64,000 bases of DNA. Source: Terriglobus sp. TAA 43 (GTDB lineage: Bacteria > Acidobacteriota > Terriglobia > Terriglobales > Acidobacteriaceae). Shown here piece by piece: positions 9,572 through 22,898 of the stretch. Position numbers and translations under genes: made by a program. The notes under the pieces are model-generated. The model saw only the letters and a program-made list of their open reading frames with translations. It made no database searches and was not told the DNA's origin. The stretch's first letter is position 1, and every line of letters starts with the position of its first letter. The stretch lies in contig NZ_JUGR01000002.1 in assembly GCF_000800015.1 (NCBI RefSeq), positions 248,001 to 312,000 on the forward strand, read 5' to 3'.

Positions 9572-11259
9572 ACATTGTCACTTTGAAGACGAATACCTTT
9601 GACGCAATCGTGATCGGTTCCGGCATGAGCGGCGGCTGGGCTGCGAAAGAACTTACCGAAAAGGGCATGCAGACGCTTGTGCTCGAAGCAGGACAGACCA
9701 TCATCCCTGAGCGCGACTATGTCGACCATCTGCCTGTGTGGGAAGTAAAGTTTCGCGGACTACGAGATCGTAAATACGAAGAGGTCTACCAACCGATGCA
9801 GCGCCACATCGGTGACGAGTGGAACTCCAAGTTCTTCGTCAACGACGTGGACAACCCATACACCACACCAGCGGACGCCCCCTATCTCTTTCTGCGTGGG
9901 CGCCATGTAGGCGGTCGTTCCGTGATGTGGGGTCGGCAGTCATACCGCTGGAGTGACATCGACTTCGAAGCCAACAGCAAGGACGGGCACGGAGTCGATT
10001 GGCCAATACGCTACAAGGATATTGAACCCTGGTACGACTACGTGGAAGATTTCATCGGAGTCAGCGGACAGGCCGAAGGCTTACCGCAACTTCCTGACGG
10101 CAAGTTTCTTCCTCCCTTTGAAATGAACTGCGGTGAGATTGCAATGAAGCACGCGGTCGAGGCGAAGTTCCCACAACGCAAAGTGACGATTGGCCGGACC
10201 GCGATCCTGACTGTTGACCATCGTGGCCGCTACGCATGCCACCAATGTGGCCCGTGCGATCACGGCTGTATTACACGGTCCTACTTCAGCAGCATCAACT
10301 CCACATTGCCCGCGGCACAAGCCACCGGCAAGCTGACGTTGCGACCCATGAGCGTGGTGCACAGCCTGATCTTTGATCCTGCAACGCGCCGCGTCACCGG
10401 TGTTCGCATCATCGATGCAGACACTCGCCAGACGATGGAGTTCCATGCGAAGCTGATCTTCCTATGCGCATCCACGCTCGAATCGGCACGCATCCTCATG
10501 AACTCGGCTACCTCCGAATTTCCAAATGGACTGGCAAATTCAAGCGGTGAGCTAGGACACAACCTGATGGACCACATCTTCCACAGCGGCGCGAGTGGAA
10601 GGCTGCCTGGCTTTGAAGATCACGTGCAGTTGGGCAACCGGCCAAATGGGATCTATATCCCACGCTTTCGAAACATCCACGACAAGCACCCAGACTTTGT
10701 GCGCGGGTATGGCTTCCAAGGACGCGCCGCCCGCGAAACATGGTCGCGCGGCGCAGACATGCCTGGCTTCGGCGTCGAGTTTAAAAACGCACTGCGGGAT
10801 CCAGGCCCGTGGCATATCAACATCGGTGCCTGGGGAGAATGCCTTCCCAACCACAGCAACTATATGGAGCTCAACCACGACAAGGTAGACGCATGGGGTA
10901 TTCCAACCATCAAGGTCAACCACAGATGGGGCCCCAATGAACTTGCAATCTTTAAAGATGCGCAAGTCACAGCCGCCGAAATGCTGGAAGCAACCGGGGT
11001 AAAGGACATCGTGATGAGTACCGTGCCCTCAATACCGGGCGAATGTATTCACGAGATGGGCAGCGCCCGCATGGGACACGATCCGAAAACCTCTGTGCTC
11101 AATTCGCACAACCAGGCACATGATGTTCTCAATCTATTCGTGACCGACGGCTCATTCATGGCCTCGTCAGCCTGTCAGAATCCGTCACTCACTTATATGG
11201 CGATGACGGCGCGAGCCTGCGACTATGCTGTGACGCAAATGAAGAAGGGCGAACTCTAA
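9568..11259 (+). CDS. GMC-family FAD-dependent sugar dehydrogenase, large subunit
   Basis: A 563-residue flavoprotein. The N-terminal Rossmann motif is 'DAIVIGSGMSGGWAAKEL', with the FAD-contact 'GRHVGGRSVMWGRQSYRW' about 115 residues on. The C-terminal GMC_oxred_C segment has 'IHEMGSARMGHDP' (catalytic His region) and 'NPSLTYMAMTARACDY'. GTG at 9568 is chosen as start because CGGAGG lies seven bases upstream and it overlaps the previous stop as GTGA; an ATG at 9541 would lie deep in the previous gene. A Cys cluster (Cys224, Cys227, Cys230, Cys234) occurs where some FAD sugar dehydrogenases hold an Fe-S centre. It has no signal peptide, so co-export with the Tat-tagged small subunit is expected. 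It probably oxidises a sugar or glycoside (a glucoside 3-dehydrogenase type is possible) and passes electrons to cytochrome c. Confidence 0.9.
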   Translation: MNIVTLKTNTFDAIVIGSGMSGGWAAKELTEKGMQTLVLEAGQTIIPERDYVDHLPVWEVKFRGLRDRKYEEVYQPMQRHIGDEWNSKFFVNDVDNPYTTPADAPYLFLRGRHVGGRSVMWGRQSYRWSDIDFEANSKDGHGVDWPIRYKDIEPWYDYVEDFIGVSGQAEGLPQLPDGKFLPPFEMNCGEIAMKHAVEAKFPQRKVTIGRTAILTVDHRGRYACHQCGPCDHGCITRSYFSSINSTLPAAQATGKLTLRPMSVVHSLIFDPATRRVTGVRIIDADTRQTMEFHAKLIFLCASTLESARILMNSATSEFPNGLANSSGELGHNLMDHIFHSGASGRLPGFEDHVQLGNRPNGIYIPRFRNIHDKHPDFVRGYGFQGRAARETWSRGADMPGFGVEFKNALRDPGPWHINIGAWGECLPNHSNYMELNHDKVDAWGIPTIKVNHRWGPNELAIFKDAQVTAAEMLEATGVKDIVMSTVPSIPGECIHEMGSARMGHDPKTSVLNSHNQAHDVLNLFVTDGSFMASSACQNPSLTYMAMTARACDYAVTQMKKGEL

Positions 11260-11555
11260 ACCTTAGCGCATGGGCATACGTGTTCAGGCAATCGCTAGTT
11301 CAACCAGGTGGTCGGATGGAGCTGTTGAGAGGAGCAAGTGATCGTTTCTCGTCTCATATTAGACGACGATCGGGATAAGCCCAATCATGCGCAACGAACG
11401 AGCTCTATCGACTACCTGACCAAGCAAGGTGTCGGCGGAATGGGAGCGAATCTCCTTGACATCGCCTCTGCATTCGCTAGTCTTAGTGGTCTCAGCGACA
11501 GCGCATTGCGTTGCGTCGCCAAAACTCACAGGACCGTTTCTGCAGGAGATCTCCC
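11260..11555. other. Intergenic region, no gene recognised
   Basis: This 296-base gap separates the GMC gene from the next rightward gene. A short open frame from 11338 runs into the downstream gene's start but has no ribosome-binding site and no recognisable product. The 3' end holds CAGGAG (11543-11548), which serves the ATG at 11556. It presumably contains the terminator of the sugar-oxidation operon and the promoter of the next unit, but I see no clear hairpin or promoter consensus. Confidence 0.5.
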
Positions 11556-12626
11556 ATGCTGAACTCCACAGCCCTTGAAGTAGCGATTGGGTTGGCGCTG
11601 GTCTTCCTCCTGCTGAGTCTGTTCTGCACCACGATCAATGAGTCCATTGCGGCTGTTCTCGGTTGGAGAGCCAAGACCCTGGAGAGGGGTATCCAAAGTC
11701 TGTTCAGTGGCGGCCAGATCACCGTGCTGGATGCGAACAATGTTGCGACACTGCGCAGTCTTTCAGATGTTGTATACAACCACGGGCTTGTGCAAGGCCT
11801 GTACAAGGGCAGTCCTTCCCAGACGTTTACCCCTGCTTCGCTGATCCATCCACGTGCACTTCCCTCATACATCCCGTCGCGGATTTTTGCGAGTACGCTT
11901 TACGACGTACTGTTCAACGCGCCTACTCAAGCGTTACGAGATACTTCGCCAGCAGCAAGCCTCAGGAACATGATCGACTCTCTCAACCAATTGCCTGACA
12001 GCAAGGCTAAGGAAGCGCTATTGCTGCTGGTGCGAGAGGCCGGAGGCGATGTTGACGCAACACGAAAGGCGATTGAGGGCTGGTTTAACGATGGTATGGA
12101 TCGTGTCTCCGGCTGGTATAAACGCCGCACGCAGCTGGTGCTCTTCTCCCTTGGAATCTCCATAGCAATCCTGCTGAATATCAACACGATTGCTGTGGCC
12201 AAGACGTTCTGGGCAAGTCCGGCGGCACGTGCATATGCCATCAAAGCTGCCGAAAGCTACTCTCAACCTCCACAAGAAGCTGTCACGCCAATATCCACAG
12301 CCAACGCGCCTGTGTCGAAGATGAAGAACCTGCCGGTAACAGCCTCGGAGCAAATCGCTGCGCTTGGCGACCTCGCATTGCCTCTTGGCTGGAACAACGG
12401 TTGGTATCCCTGGCCAAAGAACTCCAACGGCACCCAGTTCACAGGAAGCCAGTTAATTCTGAACTTCGCCATGACAATCCTGGGGTGGACTCTTACCGGA
12501 TTTGCTGTGACACTCGGTGCTCCCTTCTGGTTCGATCTGTTGAACCAGTTCATGGTCGTCCGTTCTACTGTTAAACCCTCTGAAAAGAGCGGCAACGAAG
12601 GATCGAAAGATCCTCAGCCCTCTTAA
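11556..12626 (+). CDS. Conserved membrane protein of unknown function
   Basis: A 356-residue protein with an N-terminal transmembrane helix (residues about 8-27), a large middle domain, a second helix (about 195-215, 'LVLFSLGISIAILLNINTIA') and a C-terminal helix (about 310-335, 'FAMTILGWTLTGFAVTLGAP'). The central stretch 'RKAIEGWFNDGMDRVSGWYKRR' is a conserved signature I recognise from a widespread family of hypothetical membrane proteins. CAGGAG eight bases upstream supports the ATG at 11556. It is followed 30 bases later by the propeller gene on the same strand and probably shares its transcript. It stands at the edge of the cluster containing the UbiB-like and phasin-like genes. Function is unknown. 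Confidence 0.78.
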   Translation: MLNSTALEVAIGLALVFLLLSLFCTTINESIAAVLGWRAKTLERGIQSLFSGGQITVLDANNVATLRSLSDVVYNHGLVQGLYKGSPSQTFTPASLIHPRALPSYIPSRIFASTLYDVLFNAPTQALRDTSPAASLRNMIDSLNQLPDSKAKEALLLLVREAGGDVDATRKAIEGWFNDGMDRVSGWYKRRTQLVLFSLGISIAILLNINTIAVAKTFWASPAARAYAIKAAESYSQPPQEAVTPISTANAPVSKMKNLPVTASEQIAALGDLALPLGWNNGWYPWPKNSNGTQFTGSQLILNFAMTILGWTLTGFAVTLGAPFWFDLLNQFMVVRSTVKPSEKSGNEGSKDPQPS

Positions 12627-12656
12627 ACCTACATCCCTCACTCACTAGGCAAGGCC

Positions 12657-13886
12657 ATGAAGACGTACCCTTACTCCTTTCACATTGCGCTGGATGGTAA
12701 CGGCATCAACGGTCTTGAAGGCATGGCGGGGATGTGCCTTTTCCACTTCGATCCAGCAGACAACAGCTACGCCTACAAGGTGAAGTATTACGACGGCGCG
12801 TCCGCTGGCCACGCTTGCATGGTCAGCCCGGATGGCAAACATGGTTATCTGGGCAATGCAGGCCAGCACTTGCTGTTCTATGACGCGGCTACGATCGAGG
12901 AGCAACAGCGCATCTCCACACTGCGGTATGAAGCGAACGACTCTACCATTCGAGGCAGCACGCACGTTGTTTGGCTGAACGATAAAGAAGTGTTAACCGC
13001 TGTGGGCGATTACTTTTATCGCTTTTCAGTGGACAGCCTGGACAAGGGTGAGCGGTTGATGCCGCACAACGTAAAGCTGCCACATGGGATGAAGGTAAGT
13101 GCGTCCGGCCGATACTTAGCCTACGGCTCGATGGACAACCCAGCTTTTGGCGCCAAGGGCGAAGCGCGGGAAATTGGCATACTCGACTTAGTCTCAGGCG
13201 AGGTCACGCATTTGCCCATGCCCACGACGTGTTGGCATATCGTCGCGCATCCCAAGAAGGATCTCTTCTACGCAGTCTCGTTTCGCGTGCTTCCGCAGGA
13301 CAACGTGAACTATCACGAGTGGGCGATGGCGTTTCTGAAGGAGTATGCCTACGAGATTGATCCAGCAGAAAAGCGGATTTCACGTCACTGGTCGACCAGC
13401 CGTGAGACACCCGCACATATCAATTCCGACATCACGATCTCCGACACGGAGCTAATGTTTTGCAATGGCGGCAGTCAGACGATCGTCTGCGTAGACCTTG
13501 AGACATTCTCAAAGTATCGCGTGATCGATGAGCGCCCCAGCTTTCTCACGCAGATGAAAAATCCTCGTCAGGTGGGCACGCAGATTTACGATGTGCTCGC
13601 ACGTGGCGGCCTCTTCAGCAGTTCGAAACACCTGCTGGATGCCATGCGCGTGAGCCGGTTTACTTTTTTGGATTCGATCTATGCCTGTCAGTTGTCGAAG
13701 GATCAATCACTGCTTTTCACGGCGAATCGCGGCCTGAATCACATCACCGTTTACAACTATCCTGAGGCCACCATTCGACTAAGAGTCCAGATGCCCGATC
13801 TACATGAGTTCATGCCGTCGCTCACGACGATTGCCGACCCACGGCTGGGCTTCCATCATAGCTACCTGATCAGCCCGCAGGTGTGA
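12657..13886 (+). CDS. Beta-propeller-like protein with regularly spaced histidines, unknown function
   Basis: A 409-residue protein without a signal peptide, so predicted cytoplasmic. Repeated short strands and turns ('MVSPDGKHGYLGNAG', 'MKVSASGRYLAYGSMD', 'QLSKDQSLLFTANRG') indicate a YVTN/WD-like propeller. Histidines fall at roughly blade-length intervals (His52, His103, His143, His194/His198, His254, and a C-terminal HH in 'LGFHHSYL'). This resembles propeller enzymes that hold a metal on the central axis, such as carotenoid oxygenases or selenium-binding-protein-like oxidases, but no sequence match to those was recognised. Start ATG at 12657. Its last 17 bases overlap the convergent SRPBCC gene. 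Confidence 0.72.
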   Translation: MKTYPYSFHIALDGNGINGLEGMAGMCLFHFDPADNSYAYKVKYYDGASAGHACMVSPDGKHGYLGNAGQHLLFYDAATIEEQQRISTLRYEANDSTIRGSTHVVWLNDKEVLTAVGDYFYRFSVDSLDKGERLMPHNVKLPHGMKVSASGRYLAYGSMDNPAFGAKGEAREIGILDLVSGEVTHLPMPTTCWHIVAHPKKDLFYAVSFRVLPQDNVNYHEWAMAFLKEYAYEIDPAEKRISRHWSTSRETPAHINSDITISDTELMFCNGGSQTIVCVDLETFSKYRVIDERPSFLTQMKNPRQVGTQIYDVLARGGLFSSSKHLLDAMRVSRFTFLDSIYACQLSKDQSLLFTANRGLNHITVYNYPEATIRLRVQMPDLHEFMPSLTTIADPRLGFHHSYLISPQV

Positions 13887-14424
13887 CCATGGCCGCAGCA
13901 TTCGCGATCGTCTCTGCGGCCATGGCGAGCTTGCGAAAGTTACCGGGGATGAGGGATGTCACAAAGCTTTCGGCTGCGGCGGCGACAGTCGATTCAAGGA
14001 TGGAAGGCACACCCGGTAGTCCCCTGGCGTTCAGGCTGAACTCGCCCGCGAAAATGATACGTGTGCCGCGTCCGCCTAGGGCTGGCTCAAACGTTGTAAG
14101 CCCCGTGCAACGCGTGCGATCTGGAGCGAAGTGCAGCTCAATTTGCCATGCGCATTCGTGATTCTTCTCGTGCCACATTGCGCGGTCTGTCCATGCCAAC
14201 ATATCGGACTTGATGACCGAGGAAAGCACCGCGGGAAACTTAGCCTTTGCCTGCCACAAGTTGACGAGAAAGATGTCGCCATCCGGCTGCACGGTTCGTT
14301 CCTGGACGGCGACGCTCTCAATTTCATCAAGATGAGGCACAAGTTCCCCGAGCCGGTCACGAATGGCTAACCATGCGTCTTCCACTGGGATTTTTACGAT
14401 TTGAATGGACTTGAATGTTTTCAC
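13870..14424 (-). CDS. SRPBCC (START-like) family protein
   Basis: A 184-residue cytoplasmic protein. 'IQIVKIPVEDAWLAIRDRLGEL' opens a helix-grip fold in the usual SRPBCC manner. Alternating strands follow ('AMWHEKNHECAWQIELHF', 'TRCTGLTTFEPALGGRGTRI') and then a long C-terminal helix 'LESTVAAAAESFVTSLI'. Family members bind hydrophobic ligands such as lipids, polyketides or isoprenoids in a deep cavity. It is the last gene of the leftward operon: its ATG overlaps the epimerase stop by four bases. The 3' end overlaps the convergent propeller gene. A ligand-transfer or cyclase role is inferred only. Confidence 0.72.
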   Translation of the reverse strand: MKTFKSIQIVKIPVEDAWLAIRDRLGELVPHLDEIESVAVQERTVQPDGDIFLVNLWQAKAKFPAVLSSVIKSDMLAWTDRAMWHEKNHECAWQIELHFAPDRTRCTGLTTFEPALGGRGTRIIFAGEFSLNARGLPGVPSILESTVAAAAESFVTSLIPGNFRKLAMAAETIANAAAMVTPAG

Positions 14425-15482
14425 GGTGTTTCCTTCATGAGTGCTGCACGCGCGTCGTAGACTTCGCGGCCGAGCGAGAGTGTTTGCCGCAGCGGAATGG
14501 AAACATGTTTGCCGGATACCAGCGAGGCGATGGCAGTGGCAAGTGCTGGACGCGCGGGTCCTGGCGCATAGCCCAGCTCATCTGCCGCCTTCGCATGGCT
14601 GTACCAGTAGAACTGTCCGACCATCTTCGCTTGTTCGCGCGTCGTGGTTGGGCGTGTGCCTGAAAATTGTGCCCACATCTCGTGCGCGGTTGCGGCCAGA
14701 AAGCTGACTGTGTGGTTTGCGTAGAACTGAGGGCCAGAGACACCGCAGAGTTCACCGACGGTGCGATGAATCAGCGACCACTCCATGTTCTCGGAGCCAA
14801 GCAGGTAGCACTCCCCACGTCTTCCCTTCTCCGCCGCAAGAATATGACCCCGAGCAACGTCGGCCGCGGATACGATGTTGCAACCACCCGGAAACGTCGT
14901 GCGAAATGGATCGGAGAGATAGGCAATGATGATGCCGTTGCTTGGACTTAGCTTGGTGTCGTGCGGGCCCACCGTCATGCACGGATTGACGACCACAAGA
15001 TCAAGGTCGAGGTCTGCAGCGAGTTTTAGTGCTGTGCGTTCCTGATGCAGTTTGCTGAGGCAATATGCAGGTGACGATGTTTCATCGGGCGCGTCCGTCT
15101 CTGACCGCACCGCGGTATAGTCCGAGGAGCCGAACACCACCGACGAAGATGTAAGTACTACACGCTTTACGCTTGCGGTGCGTGCTGCAATCAATACATT
15201 GGACACGCCATCAACGGCAGTCTTCTCCAGATCGGCATCGGTAATGCCCCAGTACGAAAACACCGAAGCCACATGGAAGACAACATCGCAACCGGCGACA
15301 GCAGGAAGCAGTGTCTCCGGCTGCAGTACATCTCCGTAGACGATAGCGAGCGATAGATCCTTGATCGCACTGAGATCGCTACTGGTGCGCACGAAGGCGC
15401 GCACCTCATACCCATCCTTGAGCAAAGCACGACAAAGGTTTGCGCCGATGAGACCATTTGCGCCTGTGACAAGAGCTACCAT
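14421..15482 (-). CDS. NAD(P)-dependent epimerase/dehydratase (extended SDR)
   Basis: A 353-residue extended short-chain dehydrogenase. The N-terminal nucleotide-binding motif is 'TGANGLIG' at residues 6-13, with 'VVFHVASV' and 'VVLTSSSVVFG' in the middle. The catalytic YxxxK is 'YCLSK', and 'VNPCMTVGP' follows. It is closest in appearance to dihydroflavonol-4-reductase-like, 3-beta-hydroxysteroid dehydrogenase-like and hopanoid-associated epimerases. Its ATG directly follows the stop of the DUF362 gene (TGAATG) and its stop overlaps the SRPBCC start, so it is translationally coupled on both sides. The substrate is unknown; a lipid or isoprenoid-linked alcohol/ketone would fit the neighbours, but this is inference. 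Confidence 0.88.
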   Translation of the reverse strand: MVALVTGANGLIGANLCRALLKDGYEVRAFVRTSSDLSAIKDLSLAIVYGDVLQPETLLPAVAGCDVVFHVASVFSYWGITDADLEKTAVDGVSNVLIAARTASVKRVVLTSSSVVFGSSDYTAVRSETDAPDETSSPAYCLSKLHQERTALKLAADLDLDLVVVNPCMTVGPHDTKLSPSNGIIIAYLSDPFRTTFPGGCNIVSAADVARGHILAAEKGRRGECYLLGSENMEWSLIHRTVGELCGVSGPQFYANHTVSFLAATAHEMWAQFSGTRPTTTREQAKMVGQFYWYSHAKAADELGYAPGPARPALATAIASLVSGKHVSIPLRQTLSLGREVYDARAALMKETP

Positions 15483-17672
15483 TCAACTCTCCGGATTCTG
15501 TGTGCGGCTCGGCGCGACGTCTCGCTGAATAGCCCTGGCTAAATCTTTCAAAAAATCGACTGCGCCATCCGTAACAGATTGCAGTTGAGCCTTATCGACC
15601 CACGAAGGTATCGCGCTCGTTGTAGGGTCCGGCGTATTGGACGGAGGCGCGAAGTGCGAGAAGCCGTCTGCATCCACATAGATGGGTGGAGTAGGAGTCG
15701 TACGCAATGAGAGCTTCGATGTAAGACGGTCGACCGCAACGCGTGCGCTATCAGTAAGCTCACTGAGTGAGTTGGAAAGCTTCGCGGAAGCAGTCTTGGG
15801 TTGTGTGTCTGCAGCAGTCCACGGCTGGCCAACGCGGTACTCTCGTTGCTCAAATTGCGCAGTAAAGTTTGCGATTGTCTTCGTGAAGAAGTTCTTATAC
15901 GCGTCCGCTACGAGGTAGTTCTTGAGCGCGGGATTCAGGTCGAGTTGCATCATCTGCCAGAACACAGGAAGAGAAAACTCCTGTCGCCCCACGATGGTGA
16001 TTTCAACTTCATTCGCGGGGGTTCGTTTGAAAATAACGATGCCATCGTCGAACCTTGCAGAGTTGTTTTCACTCTTGATGGTGCGCCACCAGATTTTCTG
16101 CTCATTCTCCGTGTATCGCGCAAACTCAAGTTTGGAAACATCGATCGGCTGGCCTCCACTGGGCGCCGTGTAATTGGGCTGCGGCAGATAGATGTTGCGT
16201 TCAGCCTGATGCGTCACACGACCAGCCTCATCGCGAAGAACAGGAACGCACGAGCCCCCAATGTAATCGTTCATCATGCGAATGGAACGAGTAATATCCA
16301 CCTTCGCCACAAAATCATCGAATGGGATCGGGATTTCGCGCGAGACATGGAACAAGATGGAATGATCGATGGTGTGAAGCCGCATTCCATTGGCGTCCGG
16401 CGGGAACTGCAGCACCAGTTGTTCCAGCGGTTCCATGTATTCCTGCGACGCTTCATAATCGGCGGCCGTTAAATCCTGCAAAGAGATGTTGAGCGGACGC
16501 TCCATCCACTTCAACTTATCCTTCGCAAACATCACCTTCGACGCATCATTGAGCTGGTTTGCATTGCCCAGGGTGTAATTCAGGCTAAGAAATGCGGCGA
16601 ACGAGAGCGGATCTGCATCCAGGCTGCCGAACTGTGCAGCCAGTGTGCTGTTGATCCTGTCCGTCATCGCGTCCTTGAATGGAAAGAGCAGCCGATCTAC
16701 ACTCTGCAGCCACGCAATGGCAGTGCGCTGCACTTCAAGCGATCCATTACGCTTGGCTACAGCATCGGCAACCATGGGATGAACATTCTTTACTGCGGGG
16801 AATGGGCTCAGGTCTCCACTGACCGAATACTGAGACGGCAGCCCCTGTTCGCGCAATAGTTTTGCCACGATAAGAGACGCGTACGGATCGACGCCAAACT
16901 TATTGGCGAGCGTCCAGTCCGCCAACGTGACGCTGCTGCTTGCGATGATCGTTGAGACAGCGAGCGGCATGGCGCATCGCGAGCCTGCACTGCCGTGGTT
17001 GGCCAAGTACGCATCCACCATGGCGAAATGTACAGGCGTGTGTTGCAACAACTCATTGCACACATCTTCCGGGCGGAGCCGGTGGTAGTACTGCAACTCT
17101 GTGTCCTGCAACGGCAGCACGCCAATCAGGTTTTGCGCTGTGCCGGCAAAGCTGAACTCATCATCGGTCTTCGCCTTCGCAAAGCTGATGCGAAAGTCCG
17201 CATTCTTCCACGAAGCATTGAGGGACGAACCACTGAGGATGCTGGTTGCAGGAAACTCCGCATCGCAAAGATCTTCGCTAAGGTCTGAGAAATCGTACGC
17301 GTTCTGTTGCGTGGTTTCGAAACGATAGCCCGCGAGATCGGCCAGGATAAGTGGGTCGCGGTTCTCTAACCAGAAGGCTGAGCTGTTCTGCGCTGTGCCA
17401 ATGGTCACATTGGTATATCCAGCGGCGTGCAGCCAATCGACCAGATGCTCCACCAGTGCAGGATCGGTGATGCACGTGGCAGGTTTGAAATAGAAGTTCA
17501 GGTCGGGCTTGATGAAGATAGCTAACTTGGCGGCCGAAGCACTTGTTTGCTCGCACCGAAGGTTTAGTGCCTGCAACAAGCCCGCCTGCGAAACAGCCGC
17601 GTCGAAACAGGCGAATTTATCCTGCGGGTCTGTAACGAGAGCTACGACGACGCCTTGAGTGGAGTCGCTCAT
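15483..17672 (-). CDS. DUF362-like protein with a probable START-like C-terminal half
   Basis: A 729-residue protein. The first ~270 residues follow the DUF362 pattern: 'IFIKPDLNFYFKPATCITDP' then 'LVEHLVDWLHAAGYTNVTIG'. Unlike many DUF362 proteins it shows no ferredoxin-type Cys cluster. Residues about 420-620 ('ILFHVSREIPIPFDDFVAKV', 'KIWWRTIKSENNSARFDDG', 'EVEITIVGRQEFSLPVFW') have the strand/helix order of an SRPBCC fold. The C-terminal ~120 residues are Ser/Thr/Pro-rich with a final amphipathic helix. The start at 17672 overlaps the UbiB-like stop by four bases (ATGA); an in-frame ATG at 17825 lies inside that gene. Function is unknown. The START-like assignment is my inference from pattern. 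Confidence 0.7.
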   Translation of the reverse strand: MSDSTQGVVVALVTDPQDKFACFDAAVSQAGLLQALNLRCEQTSASAAKLAIFIKPDLNFYFKPATCITDPALVEHLVDWLHAAGYTNVTIGTAQNSSAFWLENRDPLILADLAGYRFETTQQNAYDFSDLSEDLCDAEFPATSILSGSSLNASWKNADFRISFAKAKTDDEFSFAGTAQNLIGVLPLQDTELQYYHRLRPEDVCNELLQHTPVHFAMVDAYLANHGSAGSRCAMPLAVSTIIASSSVTLADWTLANKFGVDPYASLIVAKLLREQGLPSQYSVSGDLSPFPAVKNVHPMVADAVAKRNGSLEVQRTAIAWLQSVDRLLFPFKDAMTDRINSTLAAQFGSLDADPLSFAAFLSLNYTLGNANQLNDASKVMFAKDKLKWMERPLNISLQDLTAADYEASQEYMEPLEQLVLQFPPDANGMRLHTIDHSILFHVSREIPIPFDDFVAKVDITRSIRMMNDYIGGSCVPVLRDEAGRVTHQAERNIYLPQPNYTAPSGGQPIDVSKLEFARYTENEQKIWWRTIKSENNSARFDDGIVIFKRTPANEVEITIVGRQEFSLPVFWQMMQLDLNPALKNYLVADAYKNFFTKTIANFTAQFEQREYRVGQPWTAADTQPKTASAKLSNSLSELTDSARVAVDRLTSKLSLRTTPTPPIYVDADGFSHFAPPSNTPDPTTSAIPSWVDKAQLQSVTDGAVDFLKDLARAIQRDVAPSRTQNPES

Positions 17673-19444
17673 CGTTCTTGCCTCGCAGAAGCGTTTTTGT
17701 ATCGAAATCCGCGATGAATCAAAGCTACGATGACGCTTGAAACGACAGCAAGTGCTGTGACCGCGATGATTGCCTGTCGAGCCGTTAGTAACTTGGCCAG
17801 AACTAAACTGCAAATAATGCCGCAACCACCGAGCACAAGCAGACCAACAAACAGGACCAACGCGAGTCGCGCATTGGCCCGGTCATAGCACCGCGAAGCG
17901 TCTTCAAGGCCCAGGTGATCAAGCTGTATTTTGAGTTGCCCCTGCGCAAGTTGCGTGAACGTGGTCCGCAGCGTTGCAGAAAAATCCTGAAACCGCAGGA
18001 GAGTTCCCAGACCAATCCCGTAGTCCTGATGAGCGTTCGCATCCTGTGGCAATACAGCCGGCTGGTTTTGACGAAGCAATGGCATTGCAATGGGAATCAG
18101 ATCAAAAGCAGGATCGAGATTCTTGCCAACACTGTCTGCCGTTGCCAACACCTTAAAGGCCAGATAGAAACCGCGCGGCAAGATAAGTCGGTATTTCCCC
18201 GTGATTGCCAAAATATCCGCGAGCAGCCGGGGTACGGCAACAGCATGCGTGGTTCGATGACTCGCAAGAAAACGCCGCATGTCCTCACGCAGCGCAGCAA
18301 CATCAATGCTTCCGGTCGAATCCGCAAGCGCGAGGACGGATGCCGTCGCTGATTCCGCATCCTGTTGCAACAAGCTGTACAGCAGCGTGTTCACGCACCC
18401 ACGTTCCTGAGGGCCAAGCTCTCCTACCAGGCCAAGGTCATAGAACCCGATCGTGCCGTCCTTCGAGACGATCACATTATCCGCATGTGGATCGCCGTGA
18501 AAGAACCCGAAGCAGAATATCTGCCGCAGTAACGTTCTCGCGAAGGCCTGCGCCGCTGCCTTATTGAAGGGCGTATAGCCCTTAAGATCCGCTAACTTCG
18601 TCCCCGGTTCATACGTTGTTGTAAGAACGTGGCGCGCAGAATGGGAACGAATGACGCGCGGAACACGGATGCTGGAGTCATGTTCGAATTGCCAGGCAAA
18701 CCGGTCAAGATTGTTTGCCTCCAGTTCATAATCCAACTCAGACTGGACGTCGTTCATAAAGTCGGAGACGAGTCGGGCCGCGGAATCACCGTCGTTGCCG
18801 TGCTTCATACGAAGAATCAATTGTTGGATGATCGCTGTATCGCAGTGCAGCAGCTCTTCAAGGCCTTTTCCCTGCACTTTCACTGCGACTTCCATGCCAT
18901 CCTTCAACCACGCACGATGCACCTGTCCGATAGAGCCTGAGGCGATGGGTGCGCTCTCAATGCGCTCAAAGAGTGTAGTAATCGTGCCTTTGAGTTCCTC
19001 CTCGATGACAGCTTGGGCAACTGCAAAGGGAAATGGCGTGGTTTCGTCCTGTAGCTTGGCCAGTTCGTCGCGGAACGGTTTACTTAGAATTTCATCGCGC
19101 GTGGAAAGTAGCTGGCCGAACTTGATAAACGCGGGTCCAAGTTCACAGAGCGCGTCACGCACAGTTTTTGGTGAAACGCGTGGCGAGAATCTACCACGGG
19201 CAAGGTTCTCAAACATCTCAGAGAGGCCATACCGCACCAGAATTGCGAGCACGTCGCGGTAGCGTCCACGGCTGCGCGCATCAAGTATTCCGGTGATAGG
19301 TTCTGCCACGGCCAATGTAAAGCCTCTTGCAGGGGAAAATGTGCTGTGGGGGCCAAGATTATCACCAATTTCGGGCCCTAAAAGTAAATTGTGAAATCTG
19401 TTGTTGTCGTGGGATGAGTGCGCATATACTCCGGGCAGAATCAA
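17669..19444 (-). CDS. ABC1/UbiB/AarF-family atypical protein kinase-like protein
   Basis: About 591 residues. The family hallmarks are present: the KxGQ motif 'FIKFGQLLSTR' (Lys108-Gln111), the Ala/Gly-rich nucleotide loop 'APIASGSIGQVHRA', 'VAVKVQGKG' and the catalytic 'HGDPHADNV' near residue 317 with 'GFYDLGLVG'. Two C-terminal membrane helices follow ('LALVLFVGLLVLGGCGIICSL' region and 'AIIAVTALAVVSSVIVALI'). Family members act as ATPases/kinases needed for ubiquinone and other isoprenoid-lipid pathways; in plastids ABC1 kinases coat plastoglobules. The exact start is unsure because the first ~45 residues are atypical and TTG/GTG codons near residue 44 are possible. It is the first gene of a four-gene overlapping operon, and its 5' end carries the promoter of the divergent operon. 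Confidence 0.88.
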   Translation of the reverse strand: MILPGVYAHSSHDNNRFHNLLLGPEIGDNLGPHSTFSPARGFTLAVAEPITGILDARSRGRYRDVLAILVRYGLSEMFENLARGRFSPRVSPKTVRDALCELGPAFIKFGQLLSTRDEILSKPFRDELAKLQDETTPFPFAVAQAVIEEELKGTITTLFERIESAPIASGSIGQVHRAWLKDGMEVAVKVQGKGLEELLHCDTAIIQQLILRMKHGNDGDSAARLVSDFMNDVQSELDYELEANNLDRFAWQFEHDSSIRVPRVIRSHSARHVLTTTYEPGTKLADLKGYTPFNKAAAQAFARTLLRQIFCFGFFHGDPHADNVIVSKDGTIGFYDLGLVGELGPQERGCVNTLLYSLLQQDAESATASVLALADSTGSIDVAALREDMRRFLASHRTTHAVAVPRLLADILAITGKYRLILPRGFYLAFKVLATADSVGKNLDPAFDLIPIAMPLLRQNQPAVLPQDANAHQDYGIGLGTLLRFQDFSATLRTTFTQLAQGQLKIQLDHLGLEDASRCYDRANARLALVLFVGLLVLGGCGIICSLVLAKLLTARQAIIAVTALAVVSSVIVALIHRGFRYKNASARQER

Positions 19445-19467
19445 GACGCACTGAAAAGGCGGATTCT

Positions 19468-19911
19468 ATGTCTAAGGGCGGCACCCCCACAATTCCCAAC
19501 GACTACACGTATTCCATTGGCGGCACTGGAACTACTCTGTCTGTCGATTACGGGCTGGACAACATCCATGTGAAAGAACTGCCCACGCTGGAAGTTGGCG
19601 TGACCGCGTTCCCTGAGGTTACGGGCAACGCAAACATCGCGATTAAAGAGCTGCCTCCCATCGTTTCTACCGTGACGACCCTGTCCACAGTGAATACGAC
19701 GTCGAGTGTGGCAATTACAGAAATTCCGCCCATCACGACGAATCTGAATATCGCTGTCACCGAGATACCGGAGCAGCGCATTCACTATCCGGCTCACTAC
19801 CAGCTTGGGTTCAGTCTCCTGGGCATGGAGATTTGGGGCCTCTCGCTCTGCGGTGAGGCACAGGTCATCAACGAAAAGTACGTTCCGCGTAGAACCGAGA
19901 TTTGCCGTTAG
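19468..19911 (+). CDS. ELP/EIP-repeat protein of unknown function
   Basis: A 147-residue protein with four imperfect repeats of about 17-25 residues centred on 'I.[VI].E[LI]P': 'NIHVKELPTLEVGVT', 'NIAIKELPPIVSTVT', 'SVAITEIPPITTNLN' and 'NIAVTEIPEQRIHYP'. A conserved-looking tail follows ('HYQLGFSLLGMEIWGLSLCG' then 'VPRRTEIC'). The regular strand-turn pattern suggests a short beta-solenoid or extended beta structure. There is no signal peptide. ATG at 19468 with AAGG upstream is preferred; an upstream in-frame ATG at 19327 would lie inside the divergent UbiB-like gene. It is the first gene of a four-gene rightward operon. Confidence 0.68.
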   Translation: MSKGGTPTIPNDYTYSIGGTGTTLSVDYGLDNIHVKELPTLEVGVTAFPEVTGNANIAIKELPPIVSTVTTLSTVNTTSSVAITEIPPITTNLNIAVTEIPEQRIHYPAHYQLGFSLLGMEIWGLSLCGEAQVINEKYVPRRTEICR

Positions 19912-19924
19912 AGCAGGAGTTCCA

Positions 19925-20719
19925 ATGGCCGAGTCAGTGATTCAGTACGCCAATGTTGACCCGAAAGGCGTCGTCTTTTACGGCCCGCCAAAGATGCTGC
20001 GTGGCACGTTACCGTTGGTCAATCCTACCGATCAGAAATTGAAGATGCAGTCGCTGGCTGTCACCACAGATACATTGCGTGGACCTGCATCACTGCCGTT
20101 GCAAACCATCGCTGTAGGTGTACGGCTCATGCCTGGGGAACAGGCTGCGGTGCGCAGCACAATTCAATTGGACCCGCAGACCGCTCCCGGAACGTACTCT
20201 TTCAGCGTCGATGTCTCCGGCACATCCGTTCCGGTGACAGCACATGTCACGGAGGTCGTCGACTTCCGCATCGAGCCGGCAGCCGTGACACTGCTCGCTG
20301 GATCGGAGAACTCGTTCGAACGGACCTTCGTCATTGAGAATGCAGGCAATGTTCCGCTGCCGCTCGGCGAGCGGTGTGAAGCGCCATTGACCGATTCGAT
20401 CGACCTTAAGACATCCATGCTGCATGGCCTTAGCAATGCCGGCGATGCGGAAGTGAAAGAGAAAGTGAATGCATGGTTGAAGGACTGGGGCGAGCGCATG
20501 CCCGGCATGCTCGTTGTCCTTCGCGACCCGATCGTACTGAGCCCTGGCAACAAAATGACTGCAACGGCGACGTTCCAACTGCCGGATACTTTGCAGCCAT
20601 TCCGTTGCTACACGGCAAATTTGCAGCTTTACAACGCATTTCTTACCGTGACGGTCTACACAACGCGCAACGTGAACGCATCCAGTAAGAAGAAACGGGG
20701 GAATGAAGATGGCGTGTAG
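19925..20719 (+). CDS. Beta-sandwich (Ig-like) protein of unknown function
   Basis: A 264-residue protein with no signal peptide. It begins 'MAESVIQYANVDPKGVVFYG' and contains strand-rich segments typical of Ig-like or CARDB-like domains. Examples are 'MPGEQAAVRSTIQLDPQTA', 'GTYSFSVDVSGTSVPVTAHV', 'SFERTFVIENAGNVPLPL' and 'NKMTATATFQLPDTLQPF'. A short helical insertion lies between ('AEVKEKVNAWLKDWGERMPG'). GGAG seven bases before the ATG at 19925 supports this start. The gap from the previous gene is 13 bases and the 3' end overlaps the next gene, so the operon is tight. It shares the beta-sandwich theme with the next two proteins. Function is unknown. Confidence 0.68.
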   Translation: MAESVIQYANVDPKGVVFYGPPKMLRGTLPLVNPTDQKLKMQSLAVTTDTLRGPASLPLQTIAVGVRLMPGEQAAVRSTIQLDPQTAPGTYSFSVDVSGTSVPVTAHVTEVVDFRIEPAAVTLLAGSENSFERTFVIENAGNVPLPLGERCEAPLTDSIDLKTSMLHGLSNAGDAEVKEKVNAWLKDWGERMPGMLVVLRDPIVLSPGNKMTATATFQLPDTLQPFRCYTANLQLYNAFLTVTVYTTRNVNASSKKKRGNEDGV

Positions 20720-21458
20720 CGAATCCAGTGTCTCCAATCCAATGACTCAGGCCAGCCAGCAGGGCATGCAGTGGTTCACTGATTACACAAAGATGAACCT
20801 CCAGATGGCGCAAACTGCGTCGCAGATGCTGACGCCGGTGATGTCTGCCTGGATGAGTTGGTATCAGTCGCTGCTGCCTTCGCAGTTGAGCGACCTCACC
20901 AAGTCAACGAGCGACACACTGATGTCCATGGCGAAATCAGCCATGTGCGACATTCCATCCACGGTCTGTCCTCCTAAGTGCGCATGCGATATTGAGTGGT
21001 CAGCCTACCCCGGCGAAACCCGTAAAACGACTGTGAAGATCAGGAACACCTCCAAAGACACGATTGAATACACCTTTGTTGGCAAGCCCTTTACACATTG
21101 CGATAAGACACTCGATCTGATTCCTGAGATCAACACCCAGTCCGTCACTGCTGCGCCGGGCGAGACAGTAAGTGTGACGATCGGCGTCACAGTGAGCGAA
21201 CAATTCCAGAGCGGCGTCGCGTACCAGTCAGAAGTTCTGGTGCGCGGCAAGTATGAGCGCTGCATCAAGATCAAGCTAAGCGTGGCCTGTGGCTGCGACG
21301 ATGCATGCAGCTTCGACCAGGGCGACATCCCCTACCACGTGCGCCCGGACAACTGGTACAAACACTTCCAGTGCAGTGAGCCGTGCTTTGAAGCGATCCA
21401 GCCGGGGCGCACCACGACAGGCGTCAATGGGACGGACGTTGCCGGAGTGAAGTCTTGA
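20709..21458 (+). CDS. Phasin-like helix plus Cys-rich beta-sandwich protein
   Basis: A 249-residue protein. Residues about 10-75 form Met/Gln-rich amphipathic helices ('MQWFTDYTKMNLQMAQTASQ', 'VMSAWMSWYQSLLPSQLSDL') resembling the surface helices of polyhydroxyalkanoate granule phasins. Next come a Cys-rich segment ('CDIPSTVCPPKCACDIEW') and a beta-sandwich ('GETRKTTVKIRNTSKDTIEY', 'GETVSVTIGVTVSEQFQSG'). The C-terminus holds further cysteines ('CGCDDACSFD', 'CSEPCF'). Two ATGs compete, at 20703 and 20709; the purine-rich GGGGG upstream is spaced correctly for 20709. It overlaps both neighbours. The cysteines could bind metal or form crosslinks. The phasin resemblance is by pattern, not by a search. 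Confidence 0.66.
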   Translation: MACSESSVSNPMTQASQQGMQWFTDYTKMNLQMAQTASQMLTPVMSAWMSWYQSLLPSQLSDLTKSTSDTLMSMAKSAMCDIPSTVCPPKCACDIEWSAYPGETRKTTVKIRNTSKDTIEYTFVGKPFTHCDKTLDLIPEINTQSVTAAPGETVSVTIGVTVSEQFQSGVAYQSEVLVRGKYERCIKIKLSVACGCDDACSFDQGDIPYHVRPDNWYKHFQCSEPCFEAIQPGRTTTGVNGTDVAGVKS

Positions 21459-22159
21459 CGAATAGCTCTCAAACGCTTGCAGACGCTTTGAAAGCTCTTG
21501 AAGGTCAGGTCGTTGAGTCGTATGTTGACGGCTGGAAGAGCTATTGGAAGCTTGTGACCGACGTTGCGCGCGATCCATCGTCGTTGCAGGCAGCACAAAA
21601 GGAATATCTGAACCACGTGGTTCAGACAGTACCGGGAAATGTCTCGAAAACTTTTCAGGCTGGTGCGCGGGTGTACGGGGCTCTTGTGCAATCCGGCGGC
21701 CAGCTTGCCAGCGAACTCTACACGCGCACCGCACAGGACGTGACCAAAGCAGCAACTGCAGCTGCGACAACCGCAGAGACGGTAGCTGCACGCGTCGCGG
21801 AGCCAGTTGCGCCCTCAGAATTCATCTTTGAGGGGTACGCAGAGGAAACACTTAGCAAGAGATTTCTTGTGTCGAACAAATCACCACAACCGGTCAGCGT
21901 TGCTCTCGAGATCTCGAGCTTCACGCCCGATACAGAAGGCGCTTCGGTTCAGGTCAACGTCACGCCACAAACATTTTCTCTTGGCACCAATGAAGAGAAC
22001 GTAGTGACGTGCGCGGTGACGATCCCTGCCTCTCTTACGCCAATGCAGGACCACCGAGCAGTGCTTTCCGCACCCGGCTTACCTTCTTTAAGCATCGGCC
22101 TGCATGTTCGCAGCATGGGTGAACGGGACGTTGTGGTTGAAGATGCCCCACCGGGCTGA
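21455..22159 (+). CDS. Phasin-like helix plus beta-sandwich protein (TTG start)
   Basis: A 234-residue protein. Residues about 5-105 are helical and phasin-like ('VESYVDGWKSYWKLVTDVAR', 'NVSKTFQAGARVYGALVQSG', then an Ala/Thr-rich stretch 'VTKAATAAATTAETVAARV'). A beta-sandwich follows ('FIFEGYAEETLSKRFLVSNK', 'VALEISSFTPDTEGASVQVN'). The start is TTG at 21455, overlapping the previous stop as TTGA, with GGAG nine bases upstream. It is the last gene of the four-gene operon. With the preceding gene it forms a pair of helix-plus-sandwich proteins that could coat an intracellular granule or lipid body. That role is hypothetical. Confidence 0.68.
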   Translation: MTNSSQTLADALKALEGQVVESYVDGWKSYWKLVTDVARDPSSLQAAQKEYLNHVVQTVPGNVSKTFQAGARVYGALVQSGGQLASELYTRTAQDVTKAATAAATTAETVAARVAEPVAPSEFIFEGYAEETLSKRFLVSNKSPQPVSVALEISSFTPDTEGASVQVNVTPQTFSLGTNEENVVTCAVTIPASLTPMQDHRAVLSAPGLPSLSIGLHVRSMGERDVVVEDAPPG

Positions 22160-22171
22160 TCCGCTCTGGCG

Positions 22172-22741
22172 CTAGAAGAGGCAGAGCGCGAGGGATGTAG
22201 CAACAAACGATCCGACGCCAATCCCTGCAACGAGATCCGAAGGATAGTGCTGGCCACTTGCGACACGAGCCCAGCACAGCAGCAACAACCCGAGCACCAG
22301 CTCCGGGATAGCTCCATGATGCCGCCAACAGAGCAATAGGCCGACCACAGATAAGGTCATGCAGTGACCGCTGGGAAACGAGTACTGATCCAGACAGCGG
22401 CCGCGGTACGGGATGTCTGTAGCGAATTGAAAGGGCCGTTCGCGAGCAATGCGTGGCTTGGTGGAACCGTACAACAGATGTGCTACAGAAACGCCCATCG
22501 CGAGTGCGAATAGTAGCTTCCACTCATGCAGCACGATCACCCACAGCGCCAGCGGTGCATAGATCCAGCCGTTGCACACCTGATTGGTAACGTCTGCAAG
22601 CAGACGGATTGGCCTAGGTTCTGAGAGCCGCACCAGCTTCACCACCCACGGTATTTCCCTGTGATTCATGCGCAGGAATAACGCATCAATCCGAGCACGA
22701 GACGAGGATGTGAGTGGGGCTAGAGCGTTCGTGGAAGACAT
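22172..22741 (-). CDS. PAP2-superfamily membrane phosphatase
   Basis: A 189-residue polytopic protein with the three phosphatase motifs of the PAP2/acid phosphatase family: 'KPRIARERP' (KxxxxxxRP), 'PSGH', and 'RVASGQHYPSDL' (Arg, His, Asp). Several hydrophobic helices surround them ('IYAPLALWVIVLHEWKLLF', 'LVLGLLLLCWARV'). Family members dephosphorylate phosphatidic acid, undecaprenyl pyrophosphate or related lipid phosphates at the membrane. It is convergent with the phasin-like operon (12 bases between stops). A short CGCTCTG/CAGAGCG inverted repeat at 22162-22188 spans this junction and could be a weak terminator. Confidence 0.9.
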   Translation of the reverse strand: MSSTNALAPLTSSSRARIDALFLRMNHREIPWVVKLVRLSEPRPIRLLADVTNQVCNGWIYAPLALWVIVLHEWKLLFALAMGVSVAHLLYGSTKPRIARERPFQFATDIPYRGRCLDQYSFPSGHCMTLSVVGLLLCWRHHGAIPELVLGLLLLCWARVASGQHYPSDLVAGIGVGSFVATSLALCLF

Positions 22742-22898
22742 CGTCTTTCACCTGGCACTTGCGGGGATCGGTGCTGTTGCCGCGATGCTACACCCGCCTC
22801 AATTCCCGGAACAAGCACAAAACGTGCCCAATCGAAATCAGGCGTTGCCGACGGATCTCACATTGTCAGTGGTGGAATGTGGGTGGTAGCTTTTTGGC

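Follow-up and report, generated by a model that had tools for sequence, protein, structure and literature searches.

Within a 64,000-nucleotide stretch of Terriglobus sp. TAA 43 (positions 248,001 to 312,000 of contig NZ_JUGR01000002.1; hereafter the window), eleven genes are inherited as one unit, and four of them, ELP, SAND1, SAND2 and SAND3, form a quartet that recurs in other genomes beside differing enzymes. We put at about one half the probability that the quartet is a coat or scaffold, attached to a hydrophobic product by helices of SAND2 and SAND3, that holds exchangeable enzymes. The labels SAND1, SAND2 and SAND3 were coined in this analysis. The four core genes are listed below (dN/dS, ratio of nonsynonymous to synonymous substitution rates).

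19468..19911, plus strand: ELP, a 147-residue protein with ELP/EIP repeats and a conserved C-terminal part; unmatched in Pfam and NCBIfam; homologues in each of the three other locus types
19925..20719, plus strand: SAND1, a beta-sandwich protein of 264 residues; no Pfam match in a scan made with a 40-residue upstream extension; dN/dS 0.014; leave-one-out E-value 2e-16 or better
20703..21458, plus strand: SAND2, 251 residues, with amphipathic helices, an Ig/ASH-like domain and 12 Cys; Pfam matches below cut-off only
21455..22159, plus strand: SAND3, 234 residues, with phasin-like amphipathic helices and a PapD/Ig-like domain; PF05597 at 0.0015, below cut-off

Occurrence of the quartet beside different enzymes

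Nine genomes were found to carry the module: that of the window, a second species of the genus (G003), G550, G094, G250, G457, G507, G644 and G893. Genome samples were small, and the 1,708 genome searches made in total overlap. A SAND1 search matched three of 199 genomes of the window's phylum (the window's own, G094 and G250) and also G457 and G507; in the search that yielded G457, five of the nine matching genomes gave short, weak matches (E-values 1e-4 to 8e-4) and were left out. Over 274 genomes of the class of the proteobacterial G507, the SAND1 profile matched G507, G550 and G644, and G893 was the sole new match among 398 genomes of its phylum. The module is rare, since G644 was the only carrier among 54 genomes of its order.

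In the proteobacterial genome G550 (contig L062), nine of the eleven genes lie together. SAND3, SAND2, SAND1 and ELP point one way; divergent to them stand genes for a DUF362 protein (40% identical to that of the window), a short-chain dehydrogenase/reductase (SDR, 54%) and an SRPBCC protein (53%), followed by a propeller protein (69%) and a PAP2 phosphatase (30%). No tblastn match at 0.01 to the remaining two, UbiB and the membrane protein, was found on the whole 23.2-kb contig. An earlier note on this DNA, which had proposed a granule or lipid-body system, held that scattering of the genes in relatives would speak against it. As it turned out, nine of the eleven stay together in two phyla, and this is the strongest evidence that the shared genes, judged by their conservation, form one functional set.

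Four genomes (G094, G250, G457 and G507) carry a second locus type, in which SAND1, ELP and SAND2 run one way and a type I polyketide synthase (PKS) of 1776–1778 residues and SAND3 the other. Gene order is the same in all four, and the PKS copies are 71–88% identical. This compact cassette of PKS and quartet (loci L035, L036, L038 and L054) is common to three Acidobacteriota genomes and one proteobacterial metagenome-assembled genome. The copy that was scanned (L038, G507) has the domain order KS-AT-KR-ACP-methyltransferase; for its methyltransferase part, likeness to phthiotriol dimycocerosate and fatty-acid O-methyltransferases was seen at scores under cut-off.

At the locus of G644 (L063), a polyhydroxyalkanoate (PHA) synthase gene lies 83 bp behind the run of ELP, SAND1, SAND2 and SAND3, on the same strand. 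The encoded PhaC matches PF07167 at 3.9e-55 and the class II synthase model at 2.5e-178 (593.7 bits, below the curated cut-off of 855.4); an annotated class II PhaC from Pseudomonas mandelii shares 43.4% identity with it over 87%. It retains a Cys within a lipase-box-like motif, together with the D and H motifs further downstream. The fourth locus type, in G893 (L066 1347–8800), has ELP, SAND1 and SAND2, then one gene each for an alpha/beta-hydrolase and a GMC oxidoreductase, and three whose products match no Pfam family at 0.001. The order ELP, SAND1, SAND2 (and SAND3, where present) is kept in the window, L062, L063 and L066.

Homology of the quartet members across loci was controlled by leave-one-out searches, in which a family profile built without the target locus was run against the target, its other quartet members and 767 decoy open reading frames. 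With G003 and G250 excluded as separate targets, every one of the 27 tests put the target at rank one, at E-values from 2.1e-5 (SAND2 of L063, the weakest) to 1.5e-103. The best non-targets were SAND2/SAND3 paralogues, down to 7e-8; all other decoys stood at 0.013 or worse.

Architecture of the quartet and its likeness to phasins

The rightward genes ELP, SAND1, SAND2 and SAND3 are spaced by 13, -17 and -4 bp, in line with the coupling described earlier, and the ELP/EIP repeats are visible in the sequence. None of the four proteins reached a Pfam or NCBIfam family above cut-off. The C-terminal beta-sandwich domains of SAND2 and SAND3 are related (hhalign 95.5%, E 1.6e-8), whereas SAND1 and SAND3 gave no convincing alignment (3.4%). 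AlphaFold2 models of SAND1 and SAND3, built from three sequences, were of low confidence (mean pLDDT, the per-residue confidence score, 50.3 and 52.5); only their secondary structure was therefore used, which consists mainly of strands in SAND1, and of helices at residues 4–106 followed by strands in SAND3. The 50 best of 1078 Foldseek matches for the SAND1 model included Ig-, ASH- and MSP-like chains (query template-modelling scores 0.14–0.29), but the model is too weak for this to count. Sequence searches of solved structures gave marginal matches only (best E 0.023).

Strong amphipathicity marks the N-terminal segments of SAND2 and SAND3. For the five segments examined (a pair each from the window and L062 and a single one from L038), the helical moment was reached by none of 500 shuffles and exceeded the moment at the beta angle. 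Mean amphipathic moments over 18-residue windows were 0.39 for SAND3 and 0.32 for SAND2; a review (PMC5658603) gives 0.34–0.40 for three helices of the phasin PhaP1, a rough yardstick only, as those values came from a different program. Judged by these moments, the segments may form helices that could rest on a hydrophobic surface, as those of phasins do. Membership of SAND3 in a phasin family was not supported: it scored 19.0 bits against PF05597 (cut-off 28.8, E 0.0015) and 13.6 bits against PF09361 (cut-off 24.9), and no such match was seen in four relatives. Of the phasin-like helices in the earlier note, the amphipathic N-termini thus stand, but no phasin family was reached.

The closest known counterpart is the coat of the PHA granule, or carbonosome, with its phasins PhaP and PhaF, which the quartet resembles in placing small amphipathic-helix proteins beside a PHA synthase in L063. 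The review PMC5658603 also describes a histone-like domain with AAKP repeats in PhaF; the Lys/Ala-rich extension of the L062 DUF362 protein recalls such a tail, by resemblance only. The module differs from the granule coat in comprising four proteins, three of them with beta-sandwich domains, in scoring below cut-off for all phasin families, and in lying also beside a PKS or an SDR/DUF362 set, with no PHA synthase in the stretches read.

A co-inherited unit of eleven genes

In the window, the quartet is part of a unit of 11.4 kb comprising the genes for the membrane protein, propeller, SRPBCC protein, SDR, DUF362 protein, UbiB, ELP, SAND1, SAND2, SAND3 and the PAP2 phosphatase. Blastn between G003 and the window gave 91.1% identity over 11,443 columns at 11449–22857, with the flanks unmatched. 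The unit of G003 lies at 3.77 Mb; the left flank of the window's unit, a 6.7-kb stretch whose last gene encodes a GMC oxidoreductase, matches at 0.80 Mb with 95.4% identity, and 13 kb read beyond that match did not contain the unit. As unit and left flank are far apart in G003, the eleven genes occupy different chromosomal places as one piece. Between window and G003, all eleven genes are under purifying selection, with dN/dS from 0.009 (propeller) to 0.10 (UbiB, corrected start) and dS of 0.29–0.55. The propeller gene was found in two of 19 genomes of the genus and SAND2 in two of 61 relatives, the same two genomes both times.

The earlier note listed genes that are indeed present in two divergent, tightly packed groups; its extent of 13870–22159 proved too narrow, because the unit also takes in the membrane protein, the propeller and the PAP2 phosphatase. 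The first two had been suggested there as partners, and both lie inside the co-inherited unit. The unit and its remaining features are as follows.

11449..22857, no strand: co-inherited unit of eleven genes; its ends are where DNA identity with G003 stops
11556..12626, plus strand: membrane protein of a widespread family, 356 residues; no Pfam match; dN/dS 0.085; no match on the L062 contig
12657..13886, plus strand: histidine-rich probable beta-propeller, 409 residues; 99% and 69% identical to two relatives; no Pfam match above cut-off
13870..14424, minus strand: SRPBCC-like lipid-binding protein, 184 residues; DUF2505 at 3.5e-4 and Polyketide_cyc2 at 0.005, both below cut-off; 53% identical to its L062 partner
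14421..15482, minus strand: extended SDR, 353 residues, nearest to HpnA; TIGR03466 at 2.3e-78, Epimerase at 2.7e-29; 54% identical to the L062 copy
15483..17672, minus strand: DUF362 protein with conserved C-terminal half, 729 residues; PF04015 at 4.3e-16; 40% identical to that of L062 over nearly the full length
17669..19315, minus strand: UbiB/ABC1-type kinase; PF03109 at 5.8e-59; open reading frame to 19444, conserved start at about 19315
19316..19467, no strand: divergent intergenic region; identity to G003 at 145 of 151 aligned positions (96%, against 91% for the unit)
22172..22741, minus strand: PAP2-family phosphatase, 189 residues; PF01569 at 6.9e-18

No tRNA gene and no Rfam match was found in the window, and no terminal repeat at the unit ends rose above shuffled expectation. 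The flanking genes that were scanned encode a GMC oxidoreductase, a protein without a Pfam match and a TonB-type receptor; none is an integrase. An anti-phage defence system was rejected, as PADLOC returned only two marginal matches (E 0.0041 and 0.0068) for ten of the eleven proteins, PAP2 being left out. Phage origin was likewise rejected: among ten proteins, PHROGs families were reached by the SDR, UbiB and the repeats of ELP alone, and two viral contig scans confirmed nothing.

Leftward and outer genes of the unit

The leftward genes UbiB, DUF362, SDR and SRPBCC are coupled by overlap or abutment, as had been proposed (spacings -10, 0 and -4 bp; the first becomes -4 with ATG 17672 as the start of DUF362, in agreement with the start in G003). 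A shared start region at 19444/19468 had also been described. The divergent layout holds, but the position 19444 is doubtful: owing to a 1-bp indel relative to G003, the UbiB frame is conserved only further downstream, from about TTG 19315, which widens the gap from 23 bp to about 150 bp. From 19315 the dN/dS of UbiB is 0.10, near that of SAND3 (0.098); the value of 0.20 obtained when the out-of-frame 5' stretch is counted is inflated. No sigma-70-like site or promoter was found within 19150–19500.

The earlier calls of an ABC1/UbiB protein, an extended SDR and a DUF362 protein agree with the Pfam matches. With 199.6 bits against PF03109 (gathering score 22.9), UbiB belongs to the ABC1 superfamily, and among the three proteins of the genome with an ABC1 match it scores highest (202.5 bits; the other two, at 28.9 and 24.5, are also over cut-off). 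Against the UbiB equivalog TIGR01982 it reached 284.8 bits (cut-off 487.55), which does not place it among the UbiB proteins of ubiquinone synthesis. ABC1K kinases are known to associate with plastoglobules, and the protein shares their full ABC1 domain but differs in falling under the equivalog cut-off and in being absent from the proteobacterial contig. As a core component UbiB was rejected on this absence, which makes it probably an accessory; it had been one of the main arguments for a particle.

The SDR scored 263.4 bits against TIGR03466 (HpnA; cut-off 367.65). Its nearest relatives are HpnA, then SdmB and OleD, but it falls under the cut-offs of these models, and Pfam and NCBIfam scans of the unit's proteins recognised no further hopanoid or olefin gene. 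The SRPBCC call is weak, as neither of its two Pfam matches reaches its cut-off.

The DUF362 protein extends about 400 residues beyond the known domain, and its last 332 residues are 47% identical to those of L062. The START domain formerly assigned to the protein was rejected: no Pfam match up to E 10 was found in the C-terminal half of the window copy, and hhalign against an SRPBCC profile gave 0.13% (shallow alignment). The L062 half gave two unrelated Pfam matches, below cut-off. The L062 protein (11104–13614) carries an N-terminal Lys/Ala/Thr-rich tail of about 110 residues, which the window copy does not have. DUF362 is placed, in an excerpt of PMC11770544, in Pfam clan CL0471 together with DUF2088 of the lactate racemase family. 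The unit's protein shares the N-terminal DUF362 domain with this clan and differs by the extra residues without a known domain; by analogy, clan membership hints at a hydroxy-acid or metal-cofactor reaction.

Distant DUF362 genes occur in 12 of 297 genomes of the phylum, those of the window and G003 included. The neighbourhoods of four (G122, G178, G068 and G084) hold no quartet; six weaker matches (L012–L017) were outside this check. In G178 (L020 3053–9928), the gene for a DUF362 protein and one related to that of the membrane protein lie within 7 kb, a few genes apart, without the quartet; this locus is perhaps a related system. Searches of plasmids with DUF362, SAND3, propeller, ELP (two versions), SAND1 of L035 and SAND2 of L066 gave no match. 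The SRPBCC query matched one gene, on a Nostoc plasmid, with an annotated SDR about 7 kb away and neither DUF362 nor quartet in its neighbourhood.

Plasmids of varied bacteria also encode homologues of the membrane protein (13 records). Four of their neighbourhoods were read (H1, H2, H3 and H5): the quartet is absent from all four, the homologues adjoin amidase, patatin-like, DUF2252 or other genes, and in H2 an SRPBCC gene lies about 2 kb away. It is doubtful that the membrane protein is a specific part of the system. The propeller is the most conserved gene of the unit; 15 histidines are invariant across three genomes, and from its sequence it looks like a metal-binding or catalytic protein of no known family. 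The best NCBIfam model for the PAP2 protein was undecaprenyl-diphosphatase SepP (1.8e-9, far below cut-off); its L062 partner is itself a PAP2 protein (2.1e-18).

Proposed function and alternative explanations

As the quartet is inherited as a set beside different enzymes of oily or polymeric products, it may be a reusable coat or scaffold, and the PhaC and PKS partners argue for a hydrophobic product as the common factor. What the sequences show is co-inheritance, selection, partner swapping and helix amphipathicity. In the proposed mechanism, the quartet would be a module, cytosolic by inference, that is re-used with enzymes that make or modify hydrophobic products. The N-terminal helices of SAND3 and SAND2 would attach both proteins to the nascent product in the manner of phasins, and their C-terminal beta-sandwiches, with SAND1 and ELP, would form an outer layer that also holds the enzymes of the cluster. 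In the window the cargo would be a lipid-modifying set of SDR, DUF362 protein, SRPBCC carrier, propeller and PAP2, to which UbiB and the membrane protein would be optional additions; in other genomes a PHA synthase or type I PKS would take its place. An isoprenoid- or sterol-like lipid as the product of the window cargo is a guess, based on the SDR, SRPBCC, UbiB and PAP2. The particle itself, the geometry of its coat and the recruitment of enzymes would go beyond what the genes display. The wider proposal, of a four-family organelle-like coat passed between phyla, in which one shell chassis with interchangeable enzymes builds chemically different hydrophobic particles, is put forward tentatively.

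Several findings weigh against the coat or scaffold. The phasin match of SAND3 is below cut-off and missing in SAND3 of L018, L038, L062 and L063, and the AlphaFold2 models are too poor for judging coat geometry. SAND3 of L062 is only 20% identical to that of the window; that of L063 matched the profile (4.5e-11) but gave no pairwise tblastn match at 0.01; and in G893 none was found with three SAND3 queries in the 19.9 kb read. The trio of G893 adjoins a hydrolase and an oxidoreductase, not a polymerase. A PHA synthase is a neighbour in one genome only, and the L063 PhaC query (tblastn, E 0.01) found none in the 64-kb window, L018, L062, L066 or the four PKS loci. In the PKS type, gene order differs and SAND2 is strongly Cys-rich, at 25% identity. 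Ig/PapD-like domains, moreover, are also frequent in envelope proteins. For the granule or lipid particle of the earlier note, this leaves as indirect support the position of the quartet beside a PHA synthase in one genome and a PKS in four; against it stand a UbiB missing from L062, a START domain that was not found and the sub-threshold phasin match.

A soluble enzyme scaffold, or metabolon, in which the quartet docks enzymes and passes on intermediates without any particle, is less probable than a product-binding coat, though more probable than the other alternatives. The partners (PKS, PhaC, SDR/DUF362 set, hydrolase/GMC) are chemically diverse yet all of biosynthetic or lipid type, and amphipathic helices also form coiled coils, as those of SAND2 and SAND3 would here. 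The product of a PHA synthase is, however, an insoluble granule, for which a coat is more sensible than a soluble scaffold. The PapD/Ig/NEW3-like matches, all below cut-off, the Cys-rich SAND2 and the presence of a membrane protein and PAP2 would instead suit exported beta-sandwich proteins that display or assemble a product at the cell surface or in the envelope. Such a location is unlikely: by eye, with no predictor, the window quartet lacks a signal-peptide-like hydrophobic N-terminus, and PhaC, PKS and SDR are cytosolic enzymes.

Slightly less likely still is a mobile island (of conflict or stress type, for instance) in which the genes are carried along together but share no joint function. 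The patchy distribution and the relocation between the two species fit this idea; conservation of content and coupling in two phyla, the marginal PADLOC E-values and the lack of tRNA, terminal repeats and flanking integrases speak against it. In open PubMed Central full text, outside which subscription papers lie, we found no paper that joins phasins with PKS granules in Acidobacteria, DUF362 or Ig-like granule proteins, and none on UbiB with DUF362, the phaC gene neighbourhood or a scaffold or organelle of this kind. Among the papers listed for phasins with beta-sandwiches, none was on phasins, as judged from titles and opening lines of abstracts, and of those listed for phasins with PKS and inclusions none evidently concerned this module.

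Implications

If the module is a coat, it would be a phasin-like system of new architecture that is not tied to any single polymer. Four uncharacterised protein families would gain a function, a packaged product would be suggested for an orphan PKS, and a compact chassis for particle building would be at hand. The PhaC-linked version makes the coat idea directly testable in ordinary laboratory strains.

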